Shown here: piece after piece, positions 32,311 through 46,748 of the stretch | Position numbering within the stretch: position 1 is the stretch's first letter | Layout of the letters: each line of letters begins with the position of its first letter | Assembly (NCBI GenBank): GCA_024762315.1 | Contig: JANTHR010000007.1 | Coordinates: 1 to 48,178 of the forward strand | DNA: 48,178 nucleotides | DNA from: Sulfurovum sp. | GTDB lineage: Bacteria > Campylobacterota > Campylobacteria > Campylobacterales > Sulfurovaceae | Reading direction: 5' to 3' | Translations under genes and position numbers: made by a program | The notes under the pieces: generated by a model | Seen by the model: the letters and a program-made list of their open reading frames with translations, nothing else | What the model was told of the DNA's origin: nothing | Database searches by the model: none

Positions 32311-34209
32311 TTAACCTAACATCGCCGAGAGTGCTGCAACTACCAAGAGCAATACGCCACCAACAGCCATCCAATTCAGATAGTTTGAAAGGTTACCTGT
32401 TTGCATCTTTCTTGAACCGTCACCACTTTTATAAAGAAGTTTGGCAATGCCGTCTACCGTTGCATCGACAATCTTCATATCTACATCTTTCCACATATGT
32501 TCAGAAATCATCGCATACGGTTTGGAGATGAACTCTTCATACAAATTCGGAATATAGTATTGATTCGCAAGGAGTTTGTAGATAAAGCTGTTTTCAACTT
32601 TCTCATCTCTTACAAGTTTTTTAGCATATTTTTTGTATGCCAATATAATACCACTTACTGCAAAAGCAAGAACCACAAGGCCCAATAGCCATGCAATATG
32701 ATGTGTATGTTCACTCATGTGATATTCCGGCAGGAGCTTGGTCACAAAATGCTCAAAGCTTCCCATTCCAAACCCTGCAATGACTGCCAAAATGGCTAAG
32801 GGTGACATTGCAACAAGTACGAACTTGTACATTTCATGAGGGTGAATACCAAATGCTTTATATCTTTCATCACCTTCAAAGGTCAGGAATACCTGCCTGA
32901 AACTATAGAAGGCCGTCATACCTGCAGTGACCACCAAGATGGCCCAGAGTACCAGGGTACCCTCATTAAATGCTGTCTCAATGATCGCATCCTTGGAAAA
33001 GAAACCTGCGAAGAACGGGATTCCTGCCAATGCAAGTGAAGCAACACCCATATAGATATAGGTCCACTTCATTGTTTTTTTCAATCCACCCATTTTAAAG
33101 ATGTCAAGCTCATCATGCATTGCATGCATCACGTTACCTGCACCAAGGAACAGCAGTGCTTTGAAGAATGCGTGTGCCGCAAGATGGAACAGTGCGATCC
33201 AATAGGCACCAAGTCCTGCAGCAGCGAACATATACCCCAACTGAGAGAGTGTTGAGAATGCAATAATTCTTTTCAAATCCCTGTTCACCAGTGCCATAGA
33301 TGCCGCAAAGAATGCAACAAATGTACCAAGCGCTGCGATAAAGTAACTTATTTCAGGTGTCATAGAGAACAGAGGGTTGGCTCTGACCACCAGGAATACC
33401 CCTGCTGTTACCATGGTAGCTGCGTGAATCAATGCAGAAACAGGTGTAGGCCCCTCCATGGCATCTGTAAGCCATGTATGGAGCGGGAATTGTGCTGATT
33501 TACCCATTGCTCCGATAAAGAGCGCAACAGCCGCAGCATTAAGGATCGTTCCGCTTAGCTGAGGCAGTGCAGAGAAAACAACATCGTATTGAAGGCTTCC
33601 TACGTTCCAGTAGAGGATAAAGAGTCCGATCAGCATACCAAGGTCAGCGATCCGGTTCATGATAAATGCCTCATTTGCCGCCCATGATGGAGAAATAGAA
33701 GGATTTTCTTCTCTTGTGACATCTGCTTTGTGATACCAGAAACCAATAAGCAGCCAAGAACAGACACCAACTCCTTCCCACCCGATAAAGAGTCCTGCGA
33801 AGTTATCTGACATGACAAGGATCATCATGGAGAAAACGAATGCTGACAGATAGGAGAAAAATCTGTTGAAACTCTTATCATGATCCATATATCCTATAGA
33901 ATAGATATGAACGACTGTTGAGACCAATGTGACAACTGTCATCATGGTTACAGAGACCTGATCCACTATGAAACCGAACGGGATCGTCAGATCACCTGCA
34001 GAGATCCATTCCATCATTGTTACATGGATACTGGCACCTGTATGGTAGACATGGTATGCCAATGTTGCAGAGGCAACAAATGAGATGAAAAGCAGCATGG
34101 AAGCTACAATTCCTACAAATGTCTGCCTTGGACTCATGCCGAAAAGCGCTGAGAACATAGAGCTTGCAAACGGAGCAAAAAGTGCTATATATACTAAAGA
34201 TTCCATCAT
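32311..34209 (-). CDS. nuoL: Complex I subunit NuoL
   Basis: This is the most distal proton-pumping subunit, 632 residues with about 16 helices. A long C-terminal amphipathic lateral helix is expected around residues 520-590, where LYEEFISKPYAMISEHMWKD is seen. The family motifs are FIGWEGVGVCSWLLIGFW, GKSAQFPLHTWLTDAMEGPT and DLKRIIAFSTLSQLGYM. Its ATG shares a base with the nuoK stop, implying translational coupling. Confidence 0.97.
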   Translation of the reverse strand: MMESLVYIALFAPFASSMFSALFGMSPRQTFVGIVASMLLFISFVASATLAYHVYHTGASIHVTMMEWISAGDLTIPFGFIVDQVSVTMMTVVTLVSTVVHIYSIGYMDHDKSFNRFFSYLSAFVFSMMILVMSDNFAGLFIGWEGVGVCSWLLIGFWYHKADVTREENPSISPSWAANEAFIMNRIADLGMLIGLFILYWNVGSLQYDVVFSALPQLSGTILNAAAVALFIGAMGKSAQFPLHTWLTDAMEGPTPVSALIHAATMVTAGVFLVVRANPLFSMTPEISYFIAALGTFVAFFAASMALVNRDLKRIIAFSTLSQLGYMFAAAGLGAYWIALFHLAAHAFFKALLFLGAGNVMHAMHDELDIFKMGGLKKTMKWTYIYMGVASLALAGIPFFAGFFSKDAIIETAFNEGTLVLWAILVVTAGMTAFYSFRQVFLTFEGDERYKAFGIHPHEMYKFVLVAMSPLAILAVIAGFGMGSFEHFVTKLLPEYHMSEHTHHIAWLLGLVVLAFAVSGIILAYKKYAKKLVRDEKVENSFIYKLLANQYYIPNLYEEFISKPYAMISEHMWKDVDMKIVDATVDGIAKLLYKSGDGSRKMQTGNLSNYLNWMAVGGVLLLVVAALSAMLG

Positions 34210-34511
34210 TATCCCCTCATATTCGCAAGATCATCAAGATCAAGGCTTCCATATCTTTTATACAGTACGATCAAAATACCAAGTCCGACTGCTACTTCAC
34301 TCGCCGCGATAGCGATCACGAAAAATGCAAACATTTGGCCTGTCAGATCATTGTAATAATGTGAGATCGCTGCAAATGCAATATTTACTGCATTGAGCAT
34401 CACTTCTGTTGCGAAGAAAAGCATTAAAAGATTTCTTCTTCTTAGCACACCCACTAATCCTATGGAAAAGATGAGCGCTGAGACGACAAGGTAATGAGTT
34501 AAACCTATCAT
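34209..34511 (-). CDS. nuoK: Complex I subunit NuoK
   Basis: This 100-residue membrane subunit has three helices. It contains the two buried Glu residues of the proton path (FFATEVMLNAVNIAF and AIAASEVAVGLGIL) and the RRNLLMLF turn. It overlaps nuoJ by ATGA and nuoL by one base, so all three are translationally coupled. Confidence 0.96.
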   Translation of the reverse strand: MIGLTHYLVVSALIFSIGLVGVLRRRNLLMLFFATEVMLNAVNIAFAAISHYYNDLTGQMFAFFVIAIAASEVAVGLGILIVLYKRYGSLDLDDLANMRG

Positions 34512-35077
34512 TTTGCATCCTTTAGTGTCATTATTTCATCATCTGCACTGGTATCCTCAGTAAGACTCTGGTCCATTTTTTTACCTGCAAGGATGATCCC
34601 TGCAATCATTGCTACAAGTAGCATCACAGCAGCCACTTCAAACGGGACAAGATACTTCGTGAAAAGTACGATCCCTACGTCCTGTGCATTCCCTGCACCT
34701 TCATGCATAGGATAAAGTGCCTGAATTGCATCACTGTGAATCGGTGCTGCAAACATCAGTACCAGAACCAATGCACTCAAACCGCCAAGCAAGAACACCA
34801 ATCCTGCATTGGTATTTTTCTCTTTAATATCTCTTGTGGCATCAAAGAACATCATCGCAAATGAATAGAGTGCCATTACGGCACCTACATATACGATGAG
34901 CTGAACGACACCAAGGAAATCTGCACCCAGAATAAAAAAGAATCCTGAGATAAGCACCATCCCTGATGCCAGTGCCGTCATTGCATAAAGTACATTTTTA
35001 CTCATGACTGTCACAAGGAAAAGGCCTATTGTTAAAACCGAAAATAGGTAAAAGGCTACTATTTCATACATTTCCAT
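34508..35077 (-). CDS. nuoJ: Complex I subunit NuoJ
   Basis: This 189-residue membrane subunit has five helices. The conserved FLGVVQLIVYVGAVMALYSF carries the flexible pi-bulge helix that links quinone chemistry to the proton path. The polar tail EDTSADDEIMTLKDAK is longer than in E. coli. It starts 5 bases after nuoI and overlaps nuoK. Confidence 0.95.
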   Translation of the reverse strand: MEMYEIVAFYLFSVLTIGLFLVTVMSKNVLYAMTALASGMVLISGFFFILGADFLGVVQLIVYVGAVMALYSFAMMFFDATRDIKEKNTNAGLVFLLGGLSALVLVLMFAAPIHSDAIQALYPMHEGAGNAQDVGIVLFTKYLVPFEVAAVMLLVAMIAGIILAGKKMDQSLTEDTSADDEIMTLKDAK

Positions 35078-35082
35078 CCCTC

Positions 35083-35706
35083 CTAATACGCTAACGGCGT
35101 TGGTTTAATGTTGTCATCTGCATTCGGTGACACAGCACCAAATCCGTCATACTCTTGTTGCAAGTTTAGTTTGTCGATAGGTGTCAACATATCTTCAAAA
35201 AGTGAAAAACTCGCTCTCTGCTCAGAAGCGTTCTCATATCTTGGACCGTGTACGATCGCAAGTTCAGGACATACTTCTGCACAATATCCGCAGAAGATAC
35301 AACGACCGAAGTTGATCGTATATTCACTTACTTCTTTGCGCTGGTTTTCATCATATCTTGTATCCATTGTGATACAGTTGGAGATACATATCTTCTCGCA
35401 AAGTCCGCACCCGATACATCTGTAGTGACCGCTTTCAAGCAATCTGAGCATATCATGGATCGCTCTGTATCTTGGAGAGATAGGAAGCTTCTCGAACGGA
35501 TACTTCACCGTATGCATCTGCCCTCTAAAAAGTGCATTGATCATCTCTCTGAATGTTACCCAGAGTCCTACAATAAGCTCTCCCTTAAATGTCCTTTTTA
35601 CGACTTGTTTAAACTGGCACCATCCGCTCTTCGGTGTTTCACCCAAGTCAAGCATCTTGTAGTTCTGCGTGCCTACATTTCTATTTTTAAATTGTTCTAA
35701 ACCCAT
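35083..35706 (-). CDS. nuoI: Complex I subunit NuoI (two [4Fe-4S])
   Basis: This 207-residue peripheral subunit carries clusters N6a and N6b, which pass electrons towards NuoB. The ligands are C97-x2-C100-x2-C103-x3-C107 (CIGCGLCEKIC) and C136-x2-C139-x2-C142-x3-C146 (CIFCGYCAEVCPE). The N-terminal region (about 25-80) contains an amphipathic helix that lies on the membrane. The gene has a 9-base gap after nuoH. Confidence 0.97.
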   Translation of the reverse strand: MGLEQFKNRNVGTQNYKMLDLGETPKSGWCQFKQVVKRTFKGELIVGLWVTFREMINALFRGQMHTVKYPFEKLPISPRYRAIHDMLRLLESGHYRCIGCGLCEKICISNCITMDTRYDENQRKEVSEYTINFGRCIFCGYCAEVCPELAIVHGPRYENASEQRASFSLFEDMLTPIDKLNLQQEYDGFGAVSPNADDNIKPTPLAY

Positions 35707-35715
35707 ATTCTCTCC

Positions 35716-36747
35716 TTACACCATCATCACAATACCGGTGATCACAACATTGATCACCGCAATTGGCATCAATACTTTCCAGCACAGCCACATCAACTGA
35801 TCCGGTCTTACATGCGGCCAAGCAGCCCTTACCCATAACATCAAGAAGAAGAAGAATCCAACTTTCAAGATAATTGTAAGCCATCCTAGTCCACCTTCAC
35901 TGTATCCCCCGAGGAAGACGATCGCTGCAATAATAGAGATTGTGATCATGTTGGCGTACTCACCAATGAAGAACATACCCCATCTCATCCCTGAATATTC
36001 CGTTGCATATCCGGAAACTACCTCTGCCTCATGCTCAAGGAGATCGAATGGTGTTCTGTTCGTCTCTGCAAATCCAGCAATGAGGAAAAGTACAAAGGCT
36101 ACGGGCTGTTGCCAGATAAGCCATGATCCGATCCCTCCTGATTGCGCATTATTAAAATCTACAAACGAAAGTGAACCGACAAGCATGATCGGTGCAAGGA
36201 TCGAGAGCCCTGTCACCACTTCATAACTCAAGAACTGTATAGCTGTTCTTGCAGCCCCGATGATACCCCATTTATTGGCTTGTGACATACCGGCCAACAG
36301 AGGTCCGTAAAGTCCTGCTGCCATCATCCCCAATACAAACAGAATACCAATATTCAGGTCTGATGCAATGGAAGGAACAAAAATACCGCCAAGAAGAGGT
36401 ATGAATTCAGGTATGGTAAAATCCGGGAAAACCGGAACAGCCGACAGCGCAACAAAGGCTGTGGCTGCAGTAATAGCCGGTGCTACCATGAAGATCAGTT
36501 TATTTGCATTTTGTGGAACTATATCTTCTTTGGTAAAGAGTTTGATACCATCTGCAATAAGTTGCAGCAATCCATAGGGGCCCACGTGCATAGGACCTAA
36601 CCTTCTTTGCATAAATGCAAGTACTTTTCTTTCAATAAACGTACCAAATCCTGCTATAGCCGAAATAACAGCCAGGATCAAAACCGCTTTGATAAGTGAG
36701 CCCACCCATGTGACTTGTGGCAAATTTTCTACGAGTGTTGTTTCCAT
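35716..36747 (-). CDS. nuoH: Complex I subunit NuoH
   Basis: This 343-residue membrane subunit forms most of the quinone tunnel with NuoB and NuoD. It has about eight helices. The signature GTFIERKVLAFMQRRLGPMH is near the N-terminus. The quinone-site loop AGFAETNRTPFDLLEHEAE continues into SGYATEYSGM. It begins one base after the end of the second nuoG. Confidence 0.97.
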   Translation of the reverse strand: METTLVENLPQVTWVGSLIKAVLILAVISAIAGFGTFIERKVLAFMQRRLGPMHVGPYGLLQLIADGIKLFTKEDIVPQNANKLIFMVAPAITAATAFVALSAVPVFPDFTIPEFIPLLGGIFVPSIASDLNIGILFVLGMMAAGLYGPLLAGMSQANKWGIIGAARTAIQFLSYEVVTGLSILAPIMLVGSLSFVDFNNAQSGGIGSWLIWQQPVAFVLFLIAGFAETNRTPFDLLEHEAEVVSGYATEYSGMRWGMFFIGEYANMITISIIAAIVFLGGYSEGGLGWLTIILKVGFFFFLMLWVRAAWPHVRPDQLMWLCWKVLMPIAVINVVITGIVMMV

Positions 36748-36748
36748 A

Positions 36749-39205
36749 TTACACCTTTCTCATTGTTACTGTTTTGTATCTGGACTTACCAAATAGACCA
36801 TAGACATCCTGAGCACTTTTGAAATCACTAAGCGCAGCGATATCACCATCCATTCTTTCATCTGCAATGACATCCACTGTTATGCGCCTGTCTCCAAAAT
36901 CTATCTCGACCTTGTTTCCAAGCGCTTCTGCTCTGGCAGGACTTGCATAGAGACCAAATGCTTCAAAAATCTCATGTGCTTTATCACTGAAGTCATTGAA
37001 CTGCCTTTGTGGATTGCATCTGTAGACGATCTCACCTTCAGGCACGATAGACTCATCTATCTTGTCCACTTTGATCTCTTTTGCTTTTTTGCTTTTTGAT
37101 GTAAGCTGATAGCCTCTATTCTCTGTCCCGTTATTAAGATAACCATTCGGAAGCGTATCAAACTCAACTGACTTGAATCCTTTTTCTACTGGAAGCTTCA
37201 CGGTCCAATCGATCGTCTCATCAGGTGCACCGATAAGTGCTTTCATGATATCATTAAGCTCATATCCTTTGTATTCCAAAGCTGCATTGGTAGGTGTTAC
37301 TCTTTTATGCATATTCGTCAAGGTACCCTCTTGCTGGTTCATTGCCGGCATGTCAAGATCTCCATCAGCCAATGCTGAAAGTTTAAAGTCTCCATTCTCG
37401 TTATAGCCGATGGTGTATCCCGTTGCTTCCTCATCAAGATCACAGATGAGTGCAACTCCCAGAGAATTTGTTTTAGGCGGGATCATCGCTACACGCACAG
37501 ATGAAGTCTGTTCGATGAGTGCAATAAGTTTTGCAATGTTCTCTGCCTTTTCATGGAAATACAGGTCTTCGCCGATAATGAGAGAAAATGATTCTTTCTT
37601 CTTCATTATTTTCTCAAATGAATCCGCAAAAGCATCACTCTGTTTACCAAGAAGTTCTACCAGGCCGTTCTTTTCGACAGTAACCTCTTTCTCAACCATT
37701 TCGGGTACTTTTTTGCTTATCTCTTTTTCTTCACCTGTCTCTTCATCAACTACAGTTTCGGTGACATCTTTCATCACCTTCTCTTTAATAGTCTTAGTAC
37801 CTGAAGTTTTAAAACCTGCAATATACTCTTTGACATCAGCAGGTAATTTATCCGCATCTGCAAAAAGATCAAGGATCAAATAAAGTGCTGCCTCTTCCAG
37901 TCCGACCTTATGCGTAAAAATTTCTACATTTTTACCAAAAGTAGGAACAAGATTATCACCTACAGGATGGAAATAAAGCCCTGCACCTTTATTCATTTTC
38001 TGGACATTGTTAAATGCATAACGTGCATTGGGATTATCATTTCTCAATGATGCACCAACGCTCATGACAAAATCCGTCGCCATTACTTCCTTGAAATCAT
38101 AACTGTATAGGGATTGTCCCGATGCATCACTGTAGGCACTCAAGAATTTCTGGAATGCCTGTGCATCCGGATTCACAAGTTTCAGCCCCATTTTTTCTTT
38201 AAGTGTCTGAAGCATTAAGGCTTCTTCGTTCGTGATCACAGAGTTAAACCGTATACTCTCCGCTTTTTTGAACGCTTCAACGGCGGCAGCAAATGCTTTT
38301 TCATCTTTGCCCGCTGTACGGTTCTCAAAATCATATCCGAAACGTCCCGCACCGCAAAGAGAAACATAGTTCCACTCATTGGTCACGCGGAAGATCTTCT
38401 CATCTCTGTCTTCAATAGAAGCAGGTTTTGTCTCATAATAGATTTGGCAACCGCTACTGCAGTGTGCACAGGTAGCAGGTGTGCGTTTTAGGTCCCATGC
38501 GTTTGAGGTATAGACGAAATCTCTGCTTGCCAAGGCGCCTACCGGACAAACAGCGACACATTCACCACAGTCTGAACAGTTGGTGTACTCCGTGCCGTTA
38601 CTTGGTGCAATAATAGATTTTTGAAGCTTGTTCCACATTGCATAGGCATCTTTGGGCATGGTATCTTTAAAGCCTTTATCGAGTGCTTCTCCACCTCTTT
38701 TGGTTGTAGAGATAGCTGCATCACCTATCATATCTTTACAAACAGTTGTACACCTTTCACACACGATACAAAGTCCTGCATCATAATGCAGTACCGAAGA
38801 CCAATTTGTTGTTTCTCTTTTGGTATCCGGGATCATGTATGACTGTGAATCTACACCTAATTCCAAAGTGTAGTTCTGAAGTTCACATTCACCACTTTTG
38901 TCACACACACCACACTGAAGCGGGTGATTCACATCATATACTTCCATGATGGCACGACGCTCTTCAAGGATATTTGGTGTATCCACAGTAATTTCCATGC
39001 CCTCTTTGACTTTTGCATTACAGGCATACACCTGCTTTCCGTCAGCTTCTACAAGACAAATACGACATGCCAATGTTGGCGAACATCTCGTCAAGTAACA
39101 AATTGCCGGAATAAAAATATCATTGGCACGTGCAGCATTAAGGATATATTCGCCCTCTTTAACTGCAAATTCTTTACCATCAATCTTAATATTGACTGTA
39201 CCCAT
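36749..39205 (-). CDS. nuoG2: Complex I subunit NuoG, second paralogue with extra 4Fe-4S site
   Basis: This 818-residue NuoG carries cysteines for a 2Fe-2S site (CYLTRCSPTLACRIC) and the His-Cys cluster HPLQCGVCDKSGEC. It then has two full ferredoxin-like sets, CIVCERCTTVC and CSDCGECVAVCP, where ordinary NuoG has only one. CAHCSSGC plus a later Cys (SLCGAGR) makes an N7-type site. The molybdopterin-like domain follows, with a Lys/Glu/Val-rich insertion at about residues 470-515. The ATG at 39205 behind GGATGGGGAAATA is chosen; it lies one base from the stop of nuoG1. The extra clusters suggest a longer electron wire or a ferredoxin-type input. Confidence 0.93.
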   Translation of the reverse strand: MGTVNIKIDGKEFAVKEGEYILNAARANDIFIPAICYLTRCSPTLACRICLVEADGKQVYACNAKVKEGMEITVDTPNILEERRAIMEVYDVNHPLQCGVCDKSGECELQNYTLELGVDSQSYMIPDTKRETTNWSSVLHYDAGLCIVCERCTTVCKDMIGDAAISTTKRGGEALDKGFKDTMPKDAYAMWNKLQKSIIAPSNGTEYTNCSDCGECVAVCPVGALASRDFVYTSNAWDLKRTPATCAHCSSGCQIYYETKPASIEDRDEKIFRVTNEWNYVSLCGAGRFGYDFENRTAGKDEKAFAAAVEAFKKAESIRFNSVITNEEALMLQTLKEKMGLKLVNPDAQAFQKFLSAYSDASGQSLYSYDFKEVMATDFVMSVGASLRNDNPNARYAFNNVQKMNKGAGLYFHPVGDNLVPTFGKNVEIFTHKVGLEEAALYLILDLFADADKLPADVKEYIAGFKTSGTKTIKEKVMKDVTETVVDEETGEEKEISKKVPEMVEKEVTVEKNGLVELLGKQSDAFADSFEKIMKKKESFSLIIGEDLYFHEKAENIAKLIALIEQTSSVRVAMIPPKTNSLGVALICDLDEEATGYTIGYNENGDFKLSALADGDLDMPAMNQQEGTLTNMHKRVTPTNAALEYKGYELNDIMKALIGAPDETIDWTVKLPVEKGFKSVEFDTLPNGYLNNGTENRGYQLTSKSKKAKEIKVDKIDESIVPEGEIVYRCNPQRQFNDFSDKAHEIFEAFGLYASPARAEALGNKVEIDFGDRRITVDVIADERMDGDIAALSDFKSAQDVYGLFGKSRYKTVTMRKV

Positions 39206-39206
39206 A

Positions 39207-41465
39207 TTATTTCCCCATCCTTTCAAACTCTAACCTGCTAAATCTATAAGAGGATAACAAAGAGCTACTTAATCCCATATCAAAAGTCGGGTTGAGTGCT
39301 ATCGTTCCTTTCATAGATGTATCAATCTTAAACACTCGATTGAACTTTACATCATCCAGCACATAAGTAATATTGTCTCCATCCTGTAATTTTGTCGCCG
39401 CCGCGAACTGCTGTGAACCCAAAAGGGCTGCTTCATCCTTCAACAATTTTGACTTTGCCGTAAATGCTGAGAACTGCTCGGTAGGATTACAGTTATATAT
39501 GATCGCTCCGTCAAAGCCTTCCAACTCTGCAATATCGTCCAGTGCTCGTTTGACAGGAACTTTTTGAGACTTTAAAAGATAGCCTCTGTATTCATTCCCA
39601 ACACTGTCAAAATAGTCAGGAAGACTATCGAATTCAATTGTTTCAAAACCTTTGTCTTTTGGCAATGCCTTTGTATAGTCTATGGTATATTCTGCATTCA
39701 CACCCAAACAATTGGCTATATCATTAAGCACATATCCGCCATACGGAAGCGCAACATGCATCGGTACAACACGTTTGTCTACAGTTGTAAGTGTCCCTTC
39801 CTGCTGATTCATAGCAGGCATGTCCAGGTCGCCGTCGCCCAGAGCAGAGAGGGTAAAATCGGCAGGTACATTATAGCCTACTGTTTTTCCCTCTACTTCA
39901 TCATTCAGGTCGCAAATGAGTGAAATACCCATAGCATTTCCTGCAGGAGGTACACAGATCACATTAAATCCTGCATACACTTCAAGAAGTGCAAGCAGTT
40001 TTGCTATCTGTGCTGCTCTTGGATGTGCATAAAGATCAGATCCGACCACCAACGAGAAGCCTGTTTTTTTAATCAGAGACTTGCGCAATAATTCAAGCTC
40101 TTCTTCTCCGATATTGCTCTCTGCACTCAAGTTTCCAATATCAAGATCGTCAATAAAGCTGCGTATTGCTTGAGGCACCTCTACCTCTTTGAGGAGAGTA
40201 TCGACTAAAAGTGCGGCTGCACCTTCTTCGCTTCCTACCTCATATTTGATGAACTGAGTAACGATATTCTGCATCTCTTTATCTTCCAGCGGATGCATAT
40301 AGGCAACCCTTGCTCTATGCCATTTGCTTGCCATATTAATATGATATTTCACTGTCGGACTGTCATCATTGATCCTCGTTCCCATCACAATGACCGCACT
40401 TGATTCTGAAAGTGCTTTAAGCGTACCGTTATAAAGATTTTTACCGCTAACAGAAGCATAGGCCTGCATAAATTTCTGATATGCTCTTGCTTCGTGGGAA
40501 ACGAGTTTAAGGCCTATCTTCTCCTTGAGCTTTTGCAAAATCAATGCCTCTTCATTTGAAACCTGAGAAGAGAAGATGACTGTCTGTGCATTTTTAAATG
40601 CATCTATAGCTTTTGCAAATGTTTCTGTATCTTTTGTAACGCCTTCATTGGCATAATCAAAACCGTATCTCCCGGCACCGCAAAGCGTAGAAAACTCAAA
40701 ATTATTGGTGACGCGATAGATCCGGTCATGCTTCACTTCATAATTCATTTGGCATCCACCGCCACAATGTGGACAGGAAGAAGGTATCTTGGTCAATTCC
40801 CAGGCATTGGAAGTATATTTAAAATCTGTACTTACCAATGCACCAACAGGACACACGGCTGCCGCTTCACCCAAAGATGCGTAGTTCTTCTCCTGCTTCG
40901 TATTGATGATCGTTGATCCGTATCCGCCGAACTTCACCTTAAGTGCTTCGTCTCCAGTAATCTCTGTAGAGACTCTGACACATTTTTCACACATAATGCA
41001 AAGTGCCGGATCGTACGAGACATGTCCCCAATTCTCTACAGGACGATGCTGATCTCTGGCAGTAAATGCCTGTGCTTCAAGACCGAATTCCATGGTTTTG
41101 TTTTGAAGATCACATTCCCCGCTTTTGTCACACACACCACATTCTAGAGGATGATTAACATTATAGAGCTTCATAATATTTTGGCGTTCTTCGTAAATGT
41201 CTGCATTGTTGGTATGAATGACCGCACCATCGGTTGCTTTCTCCTGGCAGGAGAGGATCATGCCATCTACACCTTCTACTTCTACCACACACATACGACA
41301 TGAGCCAATAGGCAGTACCTTGGTAAGGTAGCACATGGTAGGAACGTAAATATCATTCTCTCTTGCAATCTCCAAAATGGTCTTTCCGAAGGTACTTTGA
41401 CATACTTTACCGTCAATCGTTACGGTGATAGCTTTACCTTTATTTATCGAATTATGTATACTCAT
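39207..41465 (-). CDS. nuoG1: Complex I subunit NuoG, first paralogue
   Basis: This 752-residue NuoG has the 2Fe-2S ligands (CYLTKVLPIGSCRMC plus a later Cys), the His-Cys cluster (HPLECGVCDKSGEC), the N4-type CIMCEKC with a distant CPVGAL cysteine, and an N7-type CPHCGGGC...STLCGAGR. The second ferredoxin cysteine set seen in NuoG2 is missing. Both paralogues share MPAMNQQEGTL in the large C-terminal domain. The start is the ATG at 41465, one base from the stop of the flavoprotein gene; the frame is open for 62 more codons upstream, but these overlap that gene and show no family similarity. Confidence 0.93.
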   Translation of the reverse strand: MSIHNSINKGKAITVTIDGKVCQSTFGKTILEIARENDIYVPTMCYLTKVLPIGSCRMCVVEVEGVDGMILSCQEKATDGAVIHTNNADIYEERQNIMKLYNVNHPLECGVCDKSGECDLQNKTMEFGLEAQAFTARDQHRPVENWGHVSYDPALCIMCEKCVRVSTEITGDEALKVKFGGYGSTIINTKQEKNYASLGEAAAVCPVGALVSTDFKYTSNAWELTKIPSSCPHCGGGCQMNYEVKHDRIYRVTNNFEFSTLCGAGRYGFDYANEGVTKDTETFAKAIDAFKNAQTVIFSSQVSNEEALILQKLKEKIGLKLVSHEARAYQKFMQAYASVSGKNLYNGTLKALSESSAVIVMGTRINDDSPTVKYHINMASKWHRARVAYMHPLEDKEMQNIVTQFIKYEVGSEEGAAALLVDTLLKEVEVPQAIRSFIDDLDIGNLSAESNIGEEELELLRKSLIKKTGFSLVVGSDLYAHPRAAQIAKLLALLEVYAGFNVICVPPAGNAMGISLICDLNDEVEGKTVGYNVPADFTLSALGDGDLDMPAMNQQEGTLTTVDKRVVPMHVALPYGGYVLNDIANCLGVNAEYTIDYTKALPKDKGFETIEFDSLPDYFDSVGNEYRGYLLKSQKVPVKRALDDIAELEGFDGAIIYNCNPTEQFSAFTAKSKLLKDEAALLGSQQFAAATKLQDGDNITYVLDDVKFNRVFKIDTSMKGTIALNPTFDMGLSSSLLSSYRFSRLEFERMGK

Positions 41466-41466
41466 A

Positions 41467-43476
41467 CTACACCGCCACCATTGAAATATAATAACAACGC
41501 ATGCATCTTTCCGCTTCTGCAATCGCCTCTTCACCGGTAAAGCCGAGATTAACCTCTTTGTTATTGTCTTTACGCTCATCCACATCCAGTTTTTCACTGA
41601 CTGCCCGAGGAAGCCCCGGCATCCAGCCGGTAATCTTCTCTTTTTTGTCATAGACCCTGAGCTTGTTCAGGTGATCTTCCATGATCTCATCATCGGTCAA
41701 TGTACATTTTCCGTCATAAATATAGCGGCTGATCACAGAAGCTGCACGTCTAGCCTGACCTACAGCATTTACAATGGTCATAGGTCCATATTCACAGTCT
41801 CCTGCAGCAAAGAGGCCTTCACGTGAAGTCATATAGTCTTTGCCATTGGTCAAGATAGAATTCCATGAGGTCATCTCTATATTCCACTCGTCCGGAAGTA
41901 TCTGTGTATCAAGTGCCTGAGAGACTGCAGGAATGAGATAATCACACTCTATCTCAAAATCTGCACCTTCTATCTTCACAAGCTGTGCTCTTCCACCATC
42001 TGGGTCAGGAACCAGTTCAAAACGATTGACTTTCAGCTTCGTGATATTCTCACCATCATCAAAGATCTCTTCAATAGCTGAATGAAAAATAAACTCAACG
42101 CCCTCTTCTACGGCCTCATGATACTCCTCATAGGTTGTATTGCGAATGATCGTCTTTTCATCACGACGGTAGAGCATGATCACCTTTTTGGCACCTTCAC
42201 GGATGGAACATCTAACAACATCCATAGAGGTGAACCCGCCACCGACACAAACAACAACTTTATCTTTCAACTCATTGGATGCCGGTGCACCTATTTGATA
42301 CTTATGCCAAAGATTCACTTTGTCAAGCATGGAGATCGCACCCCAGTAACCACCCATTTTCGGATTTTCATTCTCGGCACGAACTTTTTTAGAGAGTCTT
42401 GCACCAAACCCAAGCAGCGTTGCGTCATATTCAGCTTCGATCTCTTTAAGTTTTTGGGCATCTACTCTACAGTTATTCGTAATACTTACAGCTTCCATCT
42501 CAAGTACCAGATCGATATCTTTTTGGTATTTCCCAATAGGCATACGATACTCCGGTACTCCTACTGCAACTTCTCCGCCATTTACAGGCAATTCTTCAAA
42601 AATATGGGACTCTATACCTTCAAGTGCCAAATAATATGCTGCCGTAAGCCCTGCAGGTCCAGCACCGATGATGGCTACTTTCTTCCCGTCATTTCTCAGT
42701 GGTTTAGGCTCATGAGGATGCAACCAGGGAAGTTCATGGTCTGTCTCATAATCAGCACCTATACGCTTGAGCTCCATAATTGAGATAGGTTCATCCAGAT
42801 TCATACGACGACAGGCATCTTCACAAGGGTGAGGGCAGACACGTCCACAGGTATGTGCCAATGGCATGGTCTGTCTTGTTGCGGCTAAAGAGTCTGTAAA
42901 GATCATATCTCTTACCCCTTCAATATACGCAGGTATATCTACATGTGCCGGACACATATCGGTACATGGCGCCGTAACTTTGGCAATATAATTTGTATCA
43001 CCATTATAATGTTTGGATGGCATTTGCTGATCTATACAGGTATTGAACTGCTCGTTATAATACTCCATGAGATCCAAAATAGGTTTGGGTACGGTCTTTC
43101 CTATTTCACACTTTGAAGTTGTCATCATGGTTTTGGAGATCTCTTTCAGGTGTGCGATATCGTCATGTGTTCCTTCACCCCGTGCAATTTTGTCGAGCAA
43201 ATCATAAAGGATCCTGCCTCCCCAACGTCCCGGAGCACAGCGGCCGCATGCTTCTGAGTACTCCTGGTACTGTGCAGCATATTGCGAAGCCAACTCCACC
43301 GCATCTATATCTTCATCAAAGATGGCAACACCATCCCAACCGATAAATGCTTTTGAGTTTTTGTCCCCATGATAGGTTTCAGGCAGTTTAAACCCTGATT
43401 CAACCCACTCATCGGACGGTTTACCGCGATTATCGATAAATTCATCCCTCCAAGTAGAGAATACTATTCCTGACAT
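41467..43476 (-). CDS. NuoF-like Fe-S domain fused to a GltD-type FAD/NAD(P) oxidoreductase
   Basis: This 669-residue protein stands where nuoF should be. Residues about 60-145 resemble the C-terminal cluster domain of NuoF (EACGRCAPGRWGGRILYDLL, then SKCEIGKTVPKPILDLM). Of the four usual ligands only Cys77, Cys80 and Cys123 remain; the third is Gly83. From about 165 it is a GltD-type module: Cys171/175 and CGRVCPHPCEDAC (210-222) for two 4Fe-4S clusters, GAGPAG for FAD (271-276), a second Rossmann motif GGGFTSMDV (412-420) and AAGDC. The NuoF FMN domain is absent. It overlaps the E-like gene (TAATG). It probably feeds electrons from NAD(P)H or ferredoxin into complex I; the donor is not shown by sequence. 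Confidence 0.88.
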   Translation of the reverse strand: MSGIVFSTWRDEFIDNRGKPSDEWVESGFKLPETYHGDKNSKAFIGWDGVAIFDEDIDAVELASQYAAQYQEYSEACGRCAPGRWGGRILYDLLDKIARGEGTHDDIAHLKEISKTMMTTSKCEIGKTVPKPILDLMEYYNEQFNTCIDQQMPSKHYNGDTNYIAKVTAPCTDMCPAHVDIPAYIEGVRDMIFTDSLAATRQTMPLAHTCGRVCPHPCEDACRRMNLDEPISIMELKRIGADYETDHELPWLHPHEPKPLRNDGKKVAIIGAGPAGLTAAYYLALEGIESHIFEELPVNGGEVAVGVPEYRMPIGKYQKDIDLVLEMEAVSITNNCRVDAQKLKEIEAEYDATLLGFGARLSKKVRAENENPKMGGYWGAISMLDKVNLWHKYQIGAPASNELKDKVVVCVGGGFTSMDVVRCSIREGAKKVIMLYRRDEKTIIRNTTYEEYHEAVEEGVEFIFHSAIEEIFDDGENITKLKVNRFELVPDPDGGRAQLVKIEGADFEIECDYLIPAVSQALDTQILPDEWNIEMTSWNSILTNGKDYMTSREGLFAAGDCEYGPMTIVNAVGQARRAASVISRYIYDGKCTLTDDEIMEDHLNKLRVYDKKEKITGWMPGLPRAVSEKLDVDERKDNNKEVNLGFTGEEAIAEAERCMRCYYISMVAV

Positions 43477-43823
43477 TACTCAGCCTTCTCTTGGTTTTCA
43501 GATTTTGCTTCTGCAGCTTCTGCTTCTAATTTTTCTTTTTCGGCAGCAATTCTTGCAGCTTCTATTTTTTCCGCTCTGGCTTTTCTTGTTTCATCATCTA
43601 CTTTTTTCACAACGATCGTCCAGTCTACTTCATTGAATTTCAATGAATTCATAAGATCATGTCCTGTTGCTCTTACAAAATCTGCAGATTTCTGAATGTG
43701 AGAAAAATCACCTACTTCAAAAAGAAATATACCTACTTCTCCTACTTTGAGGCCTTGATCGATAAGCTCTGCCATTCTGTCATAAAAGTCATCTTTTAAA
43801 TGTCTTAAATCATATCTTTTCAT
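43476..43823 (-). CDS. Epsilon-type NuoE substitute (HP1264-like)
   Basis: This 115-residue protein has no NuoE cysteines. It reads MKRYDLRHLKDDFYDRMAEL and has a thioredoxin-like stretch VGEVGIFLFEVGDFSHIQKS, then an Ala/Glu/Lys coiled coil (about 80-115). As I recall, H. pylori HP1264 and C. jejuni Cj1575c hold the same place between nuoD and nuoG and replace NuoE. It has an 11-base gap after nuoD and shares a base with the flavoprotein gene. It probably docks the unusual input module on the complex. Confidence 0.82.
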   Translation of the reverse strand: MKRYDLRHLKDDFYDRMAELIDQGLKVGEVGIFLFEVGDFSHIQKSADFVRATGHDLMNSLKFNEVDWTIVVKKVDDETRKARAEKIEAARIAAEKEKLEAEAAEAKSENQEKAE

Positions 43824-43834
43824 TTATGCTCTCC

Positions 43835-45064
43835 TTAACGATCGACTTCACCGAATACGATATTGGTAGAACCGATGATCGTAACGACGTCTGCTATATA
43901 GGTACCTACAAGTATCTCTTGCAATAGCCCTGTGTGAAAGAAACTAGGTGCTCTACACTTCAGTCTGTAAGCATACGGCTCACCTTCTGATTTGATGTAG
44001 AAACCAAGTTCACCCTTTGGTGATTCGGTTGGCACATAGACTTCACCTTTTGGCGGTCTCATTCCCTGTGTGACCAATACAAAGTGCTGCATCAAAGCAT
44101 AGTTCTGTGTCATGATCTCCTCTTTTGGGGCAGAGATGTACTCTGGTGCATGTGCCATAAGCTGTGGCTCTGTTTTGCTATACATAGGCATGAGTTGCCT
44201 TAATATTCTAATAGACTGTGTCATCTCTTCCATATAAAGTCTATAACGTCCGTAAGAGTCACACCTGTCACTTACAGGGATGTCAAAATCAAGTTCACCA
44301 TACAATTCATACGGCTCTTCTTTTCTAATATCCCAATTGATTCCTGAACCTCTAAGCATAGGTCCCGTACATCCCCAGGAAAGTGCATCTTCTGCAGAGA
44401 TCACCCCTACATCCTCAAGACGCATCTTCCAGATACGGTTCTCTTGAAGCAGTGCATTATAGGTATGCTCAAGTTCATACTCTACTTTACTGCAAAACGA
44501 GGAAAGTTTCTCTATCCATCCAGCAGGCAGGTCCAAGGGAACCCCACCGATACGCACGGCAGAGTGTGTCAATCTGGCTCCGCAATAGTCTTCCATAAGA
44601 TCCATCGCATATTCACGTTCACGGAAGGCGTAAAGGAATACCGACATCGCCCCGACATCCAATGCATGTGTTGCGATGAAGAAAAGGTGAGAGATGATAC
44701 GGTTAAGCTCAAGCAGCATCGTCCTGATCACCTGAGCACGTCTCGGTGCTTCAATACCTAAAAGCTTCTCTACTGCCAGTGCATAGGCATAGTTGTTTGA
44801 TGTAGAGGCAATATAGTCCAGTCTGTCCGTGGTTGGCAGGAATTCATTGTATGTCATATTTTCTGCCATTTTTTCGATACCTCTATGCAGGTAACCGATA
44901 TCCGGATAGGCTTTGACCACCTGCTCGCCGTCAAGTTCCAGTACAAGTCTCAACTGTCCGTGTGCCGAAGGGTGCTGAGGACCAAAGTTGATCACCATGG
45001 TATTGTCATCTCGTTCGAAATTAAGGTTTTCAAAAAACGGTGTTAATTTATTTGGTTGTTGCAT
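43835..45064 (-). CDS. nuoD: Complex I subunit NuoD
   Basis: This 409-residue subunit is related to the NiFe-hydrogenase large subunit but lacks its metal cysteines. With NuoB it forms the quinone-reduction site. Motifs are [16 protein letters not shown] with the site histidines, [26 protein letters not shown] and the end [13 protein letters not shown]. NuoC and NuoD are separate genes here (as in Helicobacter), not fused as in E. coli. It starts 9 bases after nuoC. Confidence 0.97.
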
Positions 45065-45073
45065 ACTCTCCCC

Positions 45074-45859
45074 TTACTTTCGCTCATCCAGCTGTTTGCC
45101 GGCATTTTTGTTATAGTCAACCAGCAGTTCGCTACTGTACTCGATCGCCTGTTCTTTCTCGCCTTCAGAGATATCTGCACCGAACGGTACTTCATATCCG
45201 ACTCTGGAGAAACGCTTCGTATCATATCTGTCAATGCGTGCAGGGTCTCTGTTTTCCGGCCCAATCACGTCTCTGTACTCTTTACCGAAAATCTTATCGA
45301 CCTCATACCATGAAGCAAATTCATCCCCATGAAGCGGATAGGTTTTAAGCAGTGGATATCCCTCCCAGTCATCAGGCATAAGGATACGTTTAAGGAATGG
45401 GTGATTATTGACATAGATACCGAACATATCATACATTTCTCGCTCAGCAAAATTGGCCGATTTATACAAAGAAGTGATACTTTCGATCGCTTCACCTTTT
45501 TTAAGGCGACATACAACTCTTACTCTTTTGGCTTCAGCAATATTAAGCAGTTGGTAAAAAAGTTCAAACTCTCCATCCTGTGCCAGATAATCTACCGCTG
45601 ACTGCTCTGAACATTGTGTGTAACCACATTTTTCTTTAAGAATTGTCATGATCTCAAGATTTTTCTTTGCATCTATATGGACGACCAATGTATCGATCTC
45701 AATATAGGATTCTTTGGCTTTTTTTCCTAAAGCTTTAACTACATCAGCAAAGTGCGACCCTTCTTCTACTTCGGATCTTGGGACTCTAGGAGCCACCCAA
45801 AATCTGTCTGTATAGTATGATTTACCCTGAACATTGTCTTTTGGTACGTATTTTCTCAT
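45074..45859 (-). CDS. nuoC: Complex I subunit NuoC
   Basis: This 261-residue peripheral subunit has an extended N-terminal region (about 1-50) before the usual 30-kDa domain. The signature EREMYDMFGIYVNNHPFLKRI, then LMPDDWEGYPLLKTYPL, identifies it. Its start shares a base with the nuoB stop (TAATG). It supports the NuoB-NuoD interface. Confidence 0.96.
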   Translation of the reverse strand: MRKYVPKDNVQGKSYYTDRFWVAPRVPRSEVEEGSHFADVVKALGKKAKESYIEIDTLVVHIDAKKNLEIMTILKEKCGYTQCSEQSAVDYLAQDGEFELFYQLLNIAEAKRVRVVCRLKKGEAIESITSLYKSANFAEREMYDMFGIYVNNHPFLKRILMPDDWEGYPLLKTYPLHGDEFASWYEVDKIFGKEYRDVIGPENRDPARIDRYDTKRFSRVGYEVPFGADISEGEKEQAIEYSSELLVDYNKNAGKQLDERK

Positions 45860-46377
45860 TACACCAACCTCAAGTTTTGTTTTGTATTGTTATTCATGTT
45901 CGCCGACTCTCTTCTGATCTTCTTTTGAAGCATCATCAGTGCATACTGTAGCGTCTCAGGTCTGGGAGCACACCCAGGAAGGTAGATATCTACAGGGACG
46001 ATACGGTCAACCCCCTGAACCGTTGCATAGGTGTTAAACATTCCACCCGTATTAGCACAAGAGCCCATAGAGATAACCCATTTAGGTTCTGTCATCTGAT
46101 CATACAGACGTCTTGCAAACTCAGCGTGTTTTTTAGAAAGTGTTCCTGCCAAAATCATCACGTCTGCCTGTCTTGGAGAAGCTCTAAAAATTGTTCCCAT
46201 ACGGTCAAAGTCATAACGTGATGCTCCGGATGCCATCATCTCGATCGCACAACATGCGAGTCCATAGGTAAGCGGCCAAAGTGAATTTGAACGCCCCCAG
46301 TTCACGAGTTTGTCTACCGAAGTCAATGCTATCGGCAAGCCTGCTGCTGAGGCATAATTTACTTGATGCTGTGCCAT
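45859..46377 (-). CDS. nuoB: Complex I subunit NuoB (cluster N2)
   Basis: This 172-residue subunit carries the last cluster, N2, which reduces quinone. Its four ligands are visible: the tandem Cys42-Cys43 ([10 protein letters not shown]), Cys107 (MGSCANTGG) and Cys136 (PGCAPRPE). A polar tail [13 protein letters not shown] follows the core. Its start lies inside nuoA (19-base overlap), a usual sign of coupled expression. Confidence 0.97.
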
Positions 46378-46748
46378 TCAAGTGCTCCTTTCTTCCATGC
46401 ATATACGAACCCAATCGCAAGTAATAGTATAAATAAGATCATTTCCGCAAAACCGAACCAACCAAGCAATTTAAAGTCAATCGCCCACGGGAACATAAAA
46501 ATGATCTCTACATCAAACAAGATGAACAGAAGTGCGATCAGGTAAAATTGTGCCGAGATCGTGTTTGGCTGTTTAGTGACTTCCGGTCCACATTCATAGA
46601 TCGTTAGCTTAAGCTTTTCTGTATCAAGTTTCGCCAGCTTTCTACTGACTAGTCTTGCCAAAAATAGTGTGGCAGGAAAAGCCACACCTGTCAGAGCAAA
46701 TAGAACAAATACACCAAAATACGGGTGTTCTGTAATTACATGAGTCAT
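46359..46748 (-). CDS. nuoA: Complex I subunit NuoA
   Basis: This 129-residue, three-helix membrane subunit is first in the operon. The conserved YECGPEV loop (with the quinone-site cysteine) and the [17 protein letters not shown] helix with its acidic residues are clear. ATAAGGGGATCAAT precedes the ATG at 46748. All 15 genes down to nuoN follow with gaps of at most 11 bases. Confidence 0.96.

Follow-up and report, generated by a model that had tools for sequence, protein, structure and literature searches.

A NuoF-type/GltD fusion protein as a candidate NADP(H) module of complex I in Sulfurovum and related Campylobacterota

The window analysed here is a 48,178-nt stretch of Sulfurovum sp. 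contig JANTHR010000007.1, from an assembly of 2.09 Mb in 132 contigs that is 99.71% complete. Its minus strand carries a complex I operon in the order nuoA, B, C, D, X, Y, G1, G2, H, I, J, K, L. We use nuoX for an HP1264-like gene, Y for a 669-residue fusion protein and its gene, and G1 and G2 for nuoG1 and nuoG2. The core genes, nuoA-D and nuoH-L, lie together in this one operon and were assigned with Pfam: nuoA (46359..46748; PF00507, E 1.4e-32), nuoB (45859..46377; PF01058, E 1.6e-27), nuoC (45074..45859; PF00329, E 2.3e-36), nuoD (43835..45064; PF00346, E 2e-106), nuoH (35716..36747; PF00146, E 4e-107), nuoI (35083..35706; two 4Fe-4S sites, PF00037 and PF12838, named by position), nuoJ (34508..35077; PF00499, E 1.4e-32), nuoK (34209..34511; PF00420, E 1.2e-28) and nuoL (32311..34209; PF00361 and PF00662). 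Between nuoD and nuoG1 sit nuoX (43476..43823), at the nuoE position, and Y (41467..43476). Two full-length nuoG genes then follow, nuoG1 (39207..41465) and nuoG2 (36749..39205); their starts, at 41465 and 39205, are chosen ATGs, and the listed ORFs give longer frames. nuoX and Y overlap by one base, and the Y stop and the nuoG1 start are one base apart. Hence, these genes look translationally coupled.

The first-pass annotation had proposed that NuoE and NuoF are replaced in this operon by an HP1264-like small protein and by a fusion of a NuoF C-terminal domain with a GltD-type oxidoreductase holding two further 4Fe-4S sites. Each element of that proposal was borne out. The only Pfam family matched by nuoX at E<=1 is PF16514 (E 6e-40), with no NuoE family among its matches, and phmmer aligns it to HP1264 (2LXR, E 7e-26). 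The TIGR01959 NuoF profile matches Y only at profile positions 299-408 of 410; a match restricted to the last quarter of the profile indicates that the FMN/NADH part is absent. Residues 66-145 of Y match PF10589 (NADH_4Fe-4S, E 8e-20) and residues 168-575 match GltD domains, namely Fer4_20 at 168-247 (E 2e-22) and Pyr_redox_2 at 265-575 (E 1e-25). From Pfam, PDB alignments and conservation, we delimit an N3-type domain at residues 43-146 (43039..43350). The GltD module, delimited by Pfam and by sequence and structure comparison, spans residues 168-587 (41716..42975) and comprises Fer4_20 and two Rossmann domains with predicted FAD and NADP-type sites. The C-terminal RCMRC pair, C658 and C661 (41494..41505), aligns marginally (E 0.1-0.2) to the N-termini of 4ylf_B and 5jca_L. 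A separate intact nuoF elsewhere would have undercut the proposal, but the NuoF FMN domain (PF01512) has no match in the whole genome, and 9 of 14 control genomes match. A hidden NuoF is thus ruled out.

The cluster ligands of Y are constant. In all 21 aligned sequences the eight positions of the two GltD 4Fe-4S sites (C171, C175, C210, C214, C218, C222, C658 and C661) are cysteine. C77, C80 and C123 of the N3 domain are equally invariant, and the third N3 position, residue 83, is glycine in 21/21, so that three of the four N3 cysteines are present. The canonical CxxCxxC occurs in 0/34 copies of Y from one set and 0/76 from named loci (the sets may overlap). The lack of this cysteine in every copy examined indicates that N3 is remodelled across the family rather than broken in one genome, and the electron step through N3 may be broken or altered. 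Hand counts on the alignment to solved relatives place K237 opposite K170 of StnC, where NfnB has glutamate, and R311 opposite R239 of StnC and R201 of NfnB; both residues are invariant (21/21). A YRR motif, which we presume acts at the 2'-phosphate of NADP, is found in all 21 sequences and in all five solved relatives listed. The RCxxC pair of the GltD module is C-terminal in Y, as in StnC and NfnA, and N-terminal in NfnL-type GltD proteins. In one Helicobacteraceae-like genus (L087:3257-6043, L205:2385-5273) Y reaches 928-962 residues and has its N3 domain and GltD module set apart by a long insert of low-complexity sequence.

By sequence, the GltD part of Y comes closest, among solved structures, to NADPH-binding subunits from NfnABC and StnABC complexes: 9bov_A (E 8e-82), 9n5u_A (2e-69), 4ylf_B (9e-67) and StnC, 8oh5_C (2e-64). 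Foldseek with an AlphaFold model of Y returned 9bov_A, 8oh5_C and 9n5u_A as its top three. The model has a mean pLDDT of 73.6 and is weak at cluster-bearing stretches (below 50 at 168-191, 210-233, 602-632 and 634-669). A second structural aligner tied NfnABC, StnC and glutamate synthase (2vdc_G) at Z 32.4 to 29.5, so fold alone cannot choose among them. For the N3 domain the top scorers are HydB, NfnB and StnB-type subunits (E 3e-18 to 5e-14), ahead of respiratory NuoF (E 8e-10 or weaker). The FAD of StnC is described as a non-bifurcating NADPH site whose electrons pass along Fe-S clusters of NuoG type; K170 is there reported as an unusual ligand of the cluster beside the FAD, cluster C7 (PMC10482914). 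Features of such StnC/NfnA-type NADPH subunits are seen in Y: a GltD module with predicted FAD and NADPH sites, two 4Fe-4S sites and a lysine at the K170 position.

StnABC of Sporomusa and NfnABC of Caldicellulosiruptor and Thermococcus thus resemble Y in having a GltD module linked both to clusters of NuoG type and to an N3 domain like that of NuoF. The C-terminal RCxxC and the lysine are also shared, and the best scorers for the N3 domain are their B subunits and those of HydABC-type hydrogenases. In contrast to those enzymes, in which GltD is inserted into NuoG, the GltD module of Y is joined to the N3 domain, there is no FMN-bearing NuoF-like B subunit, and Y is encoded within a membrane complex I operon. 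NuoA-D, NuoG and NuoH-L are common to canonical complex I (NuoEFG), but the Sulfurovum operon differs in its two NuoG, in keeping three of the four N3 cysteines and in lacking NuoE and the FMN/NADH domain. The nuoX/nuoY complex I of Campylobacter jejuni and Helicobacter pylori (the epsilon type) shares the operon, NuoX and NuoG2, but is without Y and has only a C-terminal piece of NuoG1, NuoY. NuoI-GltD fusions (PRK13984) also combine GltD with a complex I Fe-S subunit, but that subunit is NuoI and not the N3 domain of NuoF. Other arrangements have been described among Campylobacterota: Nautilia profundicola is reported to have a different partial complex I without nuoE, F, G and K (PMC2628731), and Sulfurospirillum multivorans to have both a standard and an epsilon-type complex (PMC4585668). 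Searches of an open-licence library turned up no account of fusion Y, of the paired NuoG genes or of a NuoG origin for NuoY.

A survey of nuo operons indicates that Y is a conserved Campylobacterota subunit. At E<=1e-160, tallied by hand, Y was counted in 81 of 298 Campylobacterota genomes; NuoX occurs in 242/298 and in none of the 14 controls. The order A-B-C-D-X-Y-G1-G2-H-I-J-K-L, with split frames collapsed, is kept in 80/80 named loci, 55 of which span D to G2. In a genome scan, the best 80 of 574 relatives all carry Campylobacterota titles, and the nearest named loci are Sulfurovum MAGs with 88-92% identity in Y. The NuoF FMN domain is found in 59/298 genomes, including 15 of the 81 with Y, and is absent anywhere in the other 66. 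Flavodoxin occurs in 46/81 genomes with Y and in 150/162 genomes with NuoX but without Y (raw counts, kinship ignored). The association of flavodoxin with the lack of Y is therefore real in counts and far from exclusive, and other electron inputs exist alongside Y in many relatives. Two genomes that looked like exceptions, with NuoX and no Y (G273, G301), proved to have a solitary nuoX and no nuo genes in the sequence retrieved around it. At loci L220 and L221 nuoX stands alone, without nuo genes in the 15-16 kb fetched, and the L221 copy has a stop within the match.

Both NuoG proteins of the window were assigned by profile matches and motif alignment. In G1 the N1b, N5, N4 and N7 motifs are present, and of the paired 4Fe-4S motifs the second is lost; G2 has N1b, N5, two 4Fe-4S motifs and N7. 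Across relatives, N1b, N5, one full 4Fe-4S motif and N7 of G1 are kept in 21/21 sequences, and the second motif of the pair is complete in 18/21, being lost in the window, L069 and L071. N1b, N5 and both 4Fe-4S motifs of G2 are kept in 37/38, the sole exception (L088) being a broken reading frame without that part; N7 is kept in 23/37.

The window lacks a short HP1265-like NuoY between nuoX and nuoG and has a full-length NuoG1 there instead. A profile built from 28 proteins at the NuoY position matched 33/33 G1 sequences (E 4e-74 to 5e-18) in the C-terminal half, at 344-506 and 638-749 in G1 of the window. It matched 34/38 G2 sequences more weakly than G1, and 0/21 Y. NCBIfam gave NuoG as the best match for all four NuoY-position proteins tested. 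Together, these matches rule out NuoY as a relative of NuoF, although HP1265 has been listed as NuoF (PMC3561388). The NuoX of L084 is identical to HP1264 at 73 of 74 residues, which places its neighbour at the HP1265 position; that neighbour matches no Pfam family and, in NCBIfam, NuoG alone and weakly (E 0.0015). Among the 28 proteins, the best-conserved cysteine column reaches 8/28, and CxxC occurs in 2/28. In C. jejuni, Cj1574c with Cj1575c is reported to transfer electrons from flavodoxin (PMC4178425), and in a review of Campylobacterota respiration the genes appear as nuoXY and are connected with flavodoxin or ferredoxin (PMC6682613). Without conserved cysteines, NuoY could serve such a transfer as a dock only. 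At L213:4211-5266, NuoX and NuoY are fused in one ORF of 351 residues, which suggests that the two proteins touch.

Our main new evidence is that Y and the Fe-S half of G1 disappear together. We counted 58 operons from genomes of many genera, each with nuoB, D, H and L, out of 65 fetched loci. A G1 of 668-812 residues with an N5 motif accompanies Y in 30/30 operons. The 28 operons without Y all lack such a G1, and in every one an ORF of 215-351 residues stands at that place. Left out of the count were L075, L199, L203 and L205 (Y and G1 present; operon cut or incomplete), L192 (no Y; second operon of genome G239), L209 (a 401-base stub) and L216 (no nuo gene matched); outside the 65-locus set are L107 (a 20-base stub) and L108 (canonical NuoF complex I). 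On a quick nuo tree (LG+G4, SH-aLRT only), which does not itself give the direction of change, the Y/G1 state changes at least seven times. All seven independent pairs agree on the co-change of Y and G1 (sign test p 0.016). Since the short ORFs correspond to parts of G1, we favour loss over gain. One loss of Y falls inside the family to which the window belongs, where the Y-less L191 (G239) and the Y-bearing L193 (G128) are sisters. G239 has two nuoX operons, L191 and L192, both without Y and each with a short NuoG1 remnant. The co-loss indirectly supports a link between Y and NuoG, and points to G1 as the partner of Y among the two NuoG proteins.

The further genes sought in this genome by profile search favour complex I as a possible source of NADPH by reverse flow. 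There is no match to PntB in this genome, and none to Flavodoxin_1, which 10 of 14 controls match. Two 2-oxoacid:ferredoxin oxidoreductases are matched, and gltB is encoded together with a gltD of its own elsewhere, with no gltB beside Y. A search for ATP citrate lyase gave no match in this genome and none in any control, and so bears neither way on the carbon-fixing habit suggested in the first-pass annotation. On a 3.3-kb contig of the same assembly (L223:119-3256; G000:C117), a NuoD/FpoD-like gene lies beside a NuoI-GltD fusion at least 593 residues long, which is PRK13984-like at 641 bits against a cut-off of 946. These genes belong to another operon of complex I type that includes a GltD module, and the contig may be a contaminant. 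At two further loci (L226:4394-9144, L228:4298-9046), NuoB-like and NuoD-like genes precede one for a GltD-like protein (501 and 476 residues, respectively); at a guess, this could be a group-4 hydrogenase operon with a GltD partner.

Taking the domains and cluster ligands of Y, the missing FMN site, the operon order and the joint loss together, we consider it likely that Y is a real complex I subunit, and that together with G1 it makes up a module through which electrons enter from NADPH or leave to NADP+. We infer the docking, the specificity for NADP(H), the electron route and the direction of flow as follows. The NuoF-type N3 domain of Y would dock on NuoG1, and the GltD module would exchange hydride between NADP(H) and FAD. 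Electrons from the FAD would then move singly along the two 4Fe-4S clusters of the GltD module to the Fe-S domains of NuoG1, and from there through NuoG2, NuoI and NuoB to quinone. The enzyme would be an ion-pumping NADPH:quinone oxidoreductase. In a sulfur oxidiser it would operate mostly in reverse, using quinol electrons to make NADPH.

What of other explanations for Y? Electrons from ferredoxin or flavodoxin could enter through NuoX, as has been proposed for C. jejuni, with Y as a side entry or regulator. We regard this as possible but doubtful. It fits the retention of NuoX in most of the genomes surveyed, the reported binding of FMN by HP1264 (PMC6269979), the flavodoxin transfer described for Cj1574c/Cj1575c and the two 2-oxoacid:ferredoxin oxidoreductases of this genome. 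However, the flavodoxin form of this proposal sits poorly with a genome that has no Flavodoxin_1 match, and flavodoxin is less frequent in genomes with Y than in those with NuoX alone. It is unlikely that Y docks in the same way while the FAD of GltD uses NADH, which would make the complex a rebuilt NADH dehydrogenase. Y does occupy the operon position of an NADH module, but its nearest solved sequence relatives (StnC, NfnB/NfnL and NfnA-type proteins) handle NADPH, and YRR is invariant in Y; NADP(H) is therefore likelier than NADH as the substrate.

Y could also be an independent soluble enzyme that is merely located in the operon, such as a glutamate synthase small subunit, since glutamate synthase has GltD modules and one aligner ties 2vdc_G with NfnABC. 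As the glutamate synthase subunit of this genome Y is ruled out by the separate gltB-gltD. Given also its NuoF-type domain, its fixed place among the nuo genes and its loss together with the Fe-S half of NuoG1, independence in any form is very improbable. A bolder extension of the NADP(H) module, to which we give little credence, is a complex in which two flavins act as gates. NADP(H) would use the FAD of Y and a low-potential carrier the FMN of NuoX, with the doubled NuoG as the wire between them. The ion gradient would drive quinol electrons to both NADP+ and ferredoxin, combining complex I with a bifurcating/confurcating transhydrogenase. In Campylobacter and Helicobacter, the complexes fed by flavodoxin would then be reduced descendants, the NADPH gate and the clusters of the first NuoG having been lost several times.

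These observations bear on an old puzzle, the electron source of complex I in Campylobacterota. In their light, the NuoY found in H. pylori and C. jejuni is better seen as a vestigial NuoG lacking conserved cysteines than as a stand-in for NuoF, and electron entry in those complexes would then be expected at NuoX or NuoG2. Known input modules of complex I include those for NADH and F420H2. Input from ferredoxin or flavodoxin has also been described (PMC6682613; PMC4178425 for flavodoxin). A GltD-type NADP(H) module, if our proposal is true, would be another, and it supplies a hypothesis that directly addresses how Campylobacterota oxidising sulfur or hydrogen may make NADPH.
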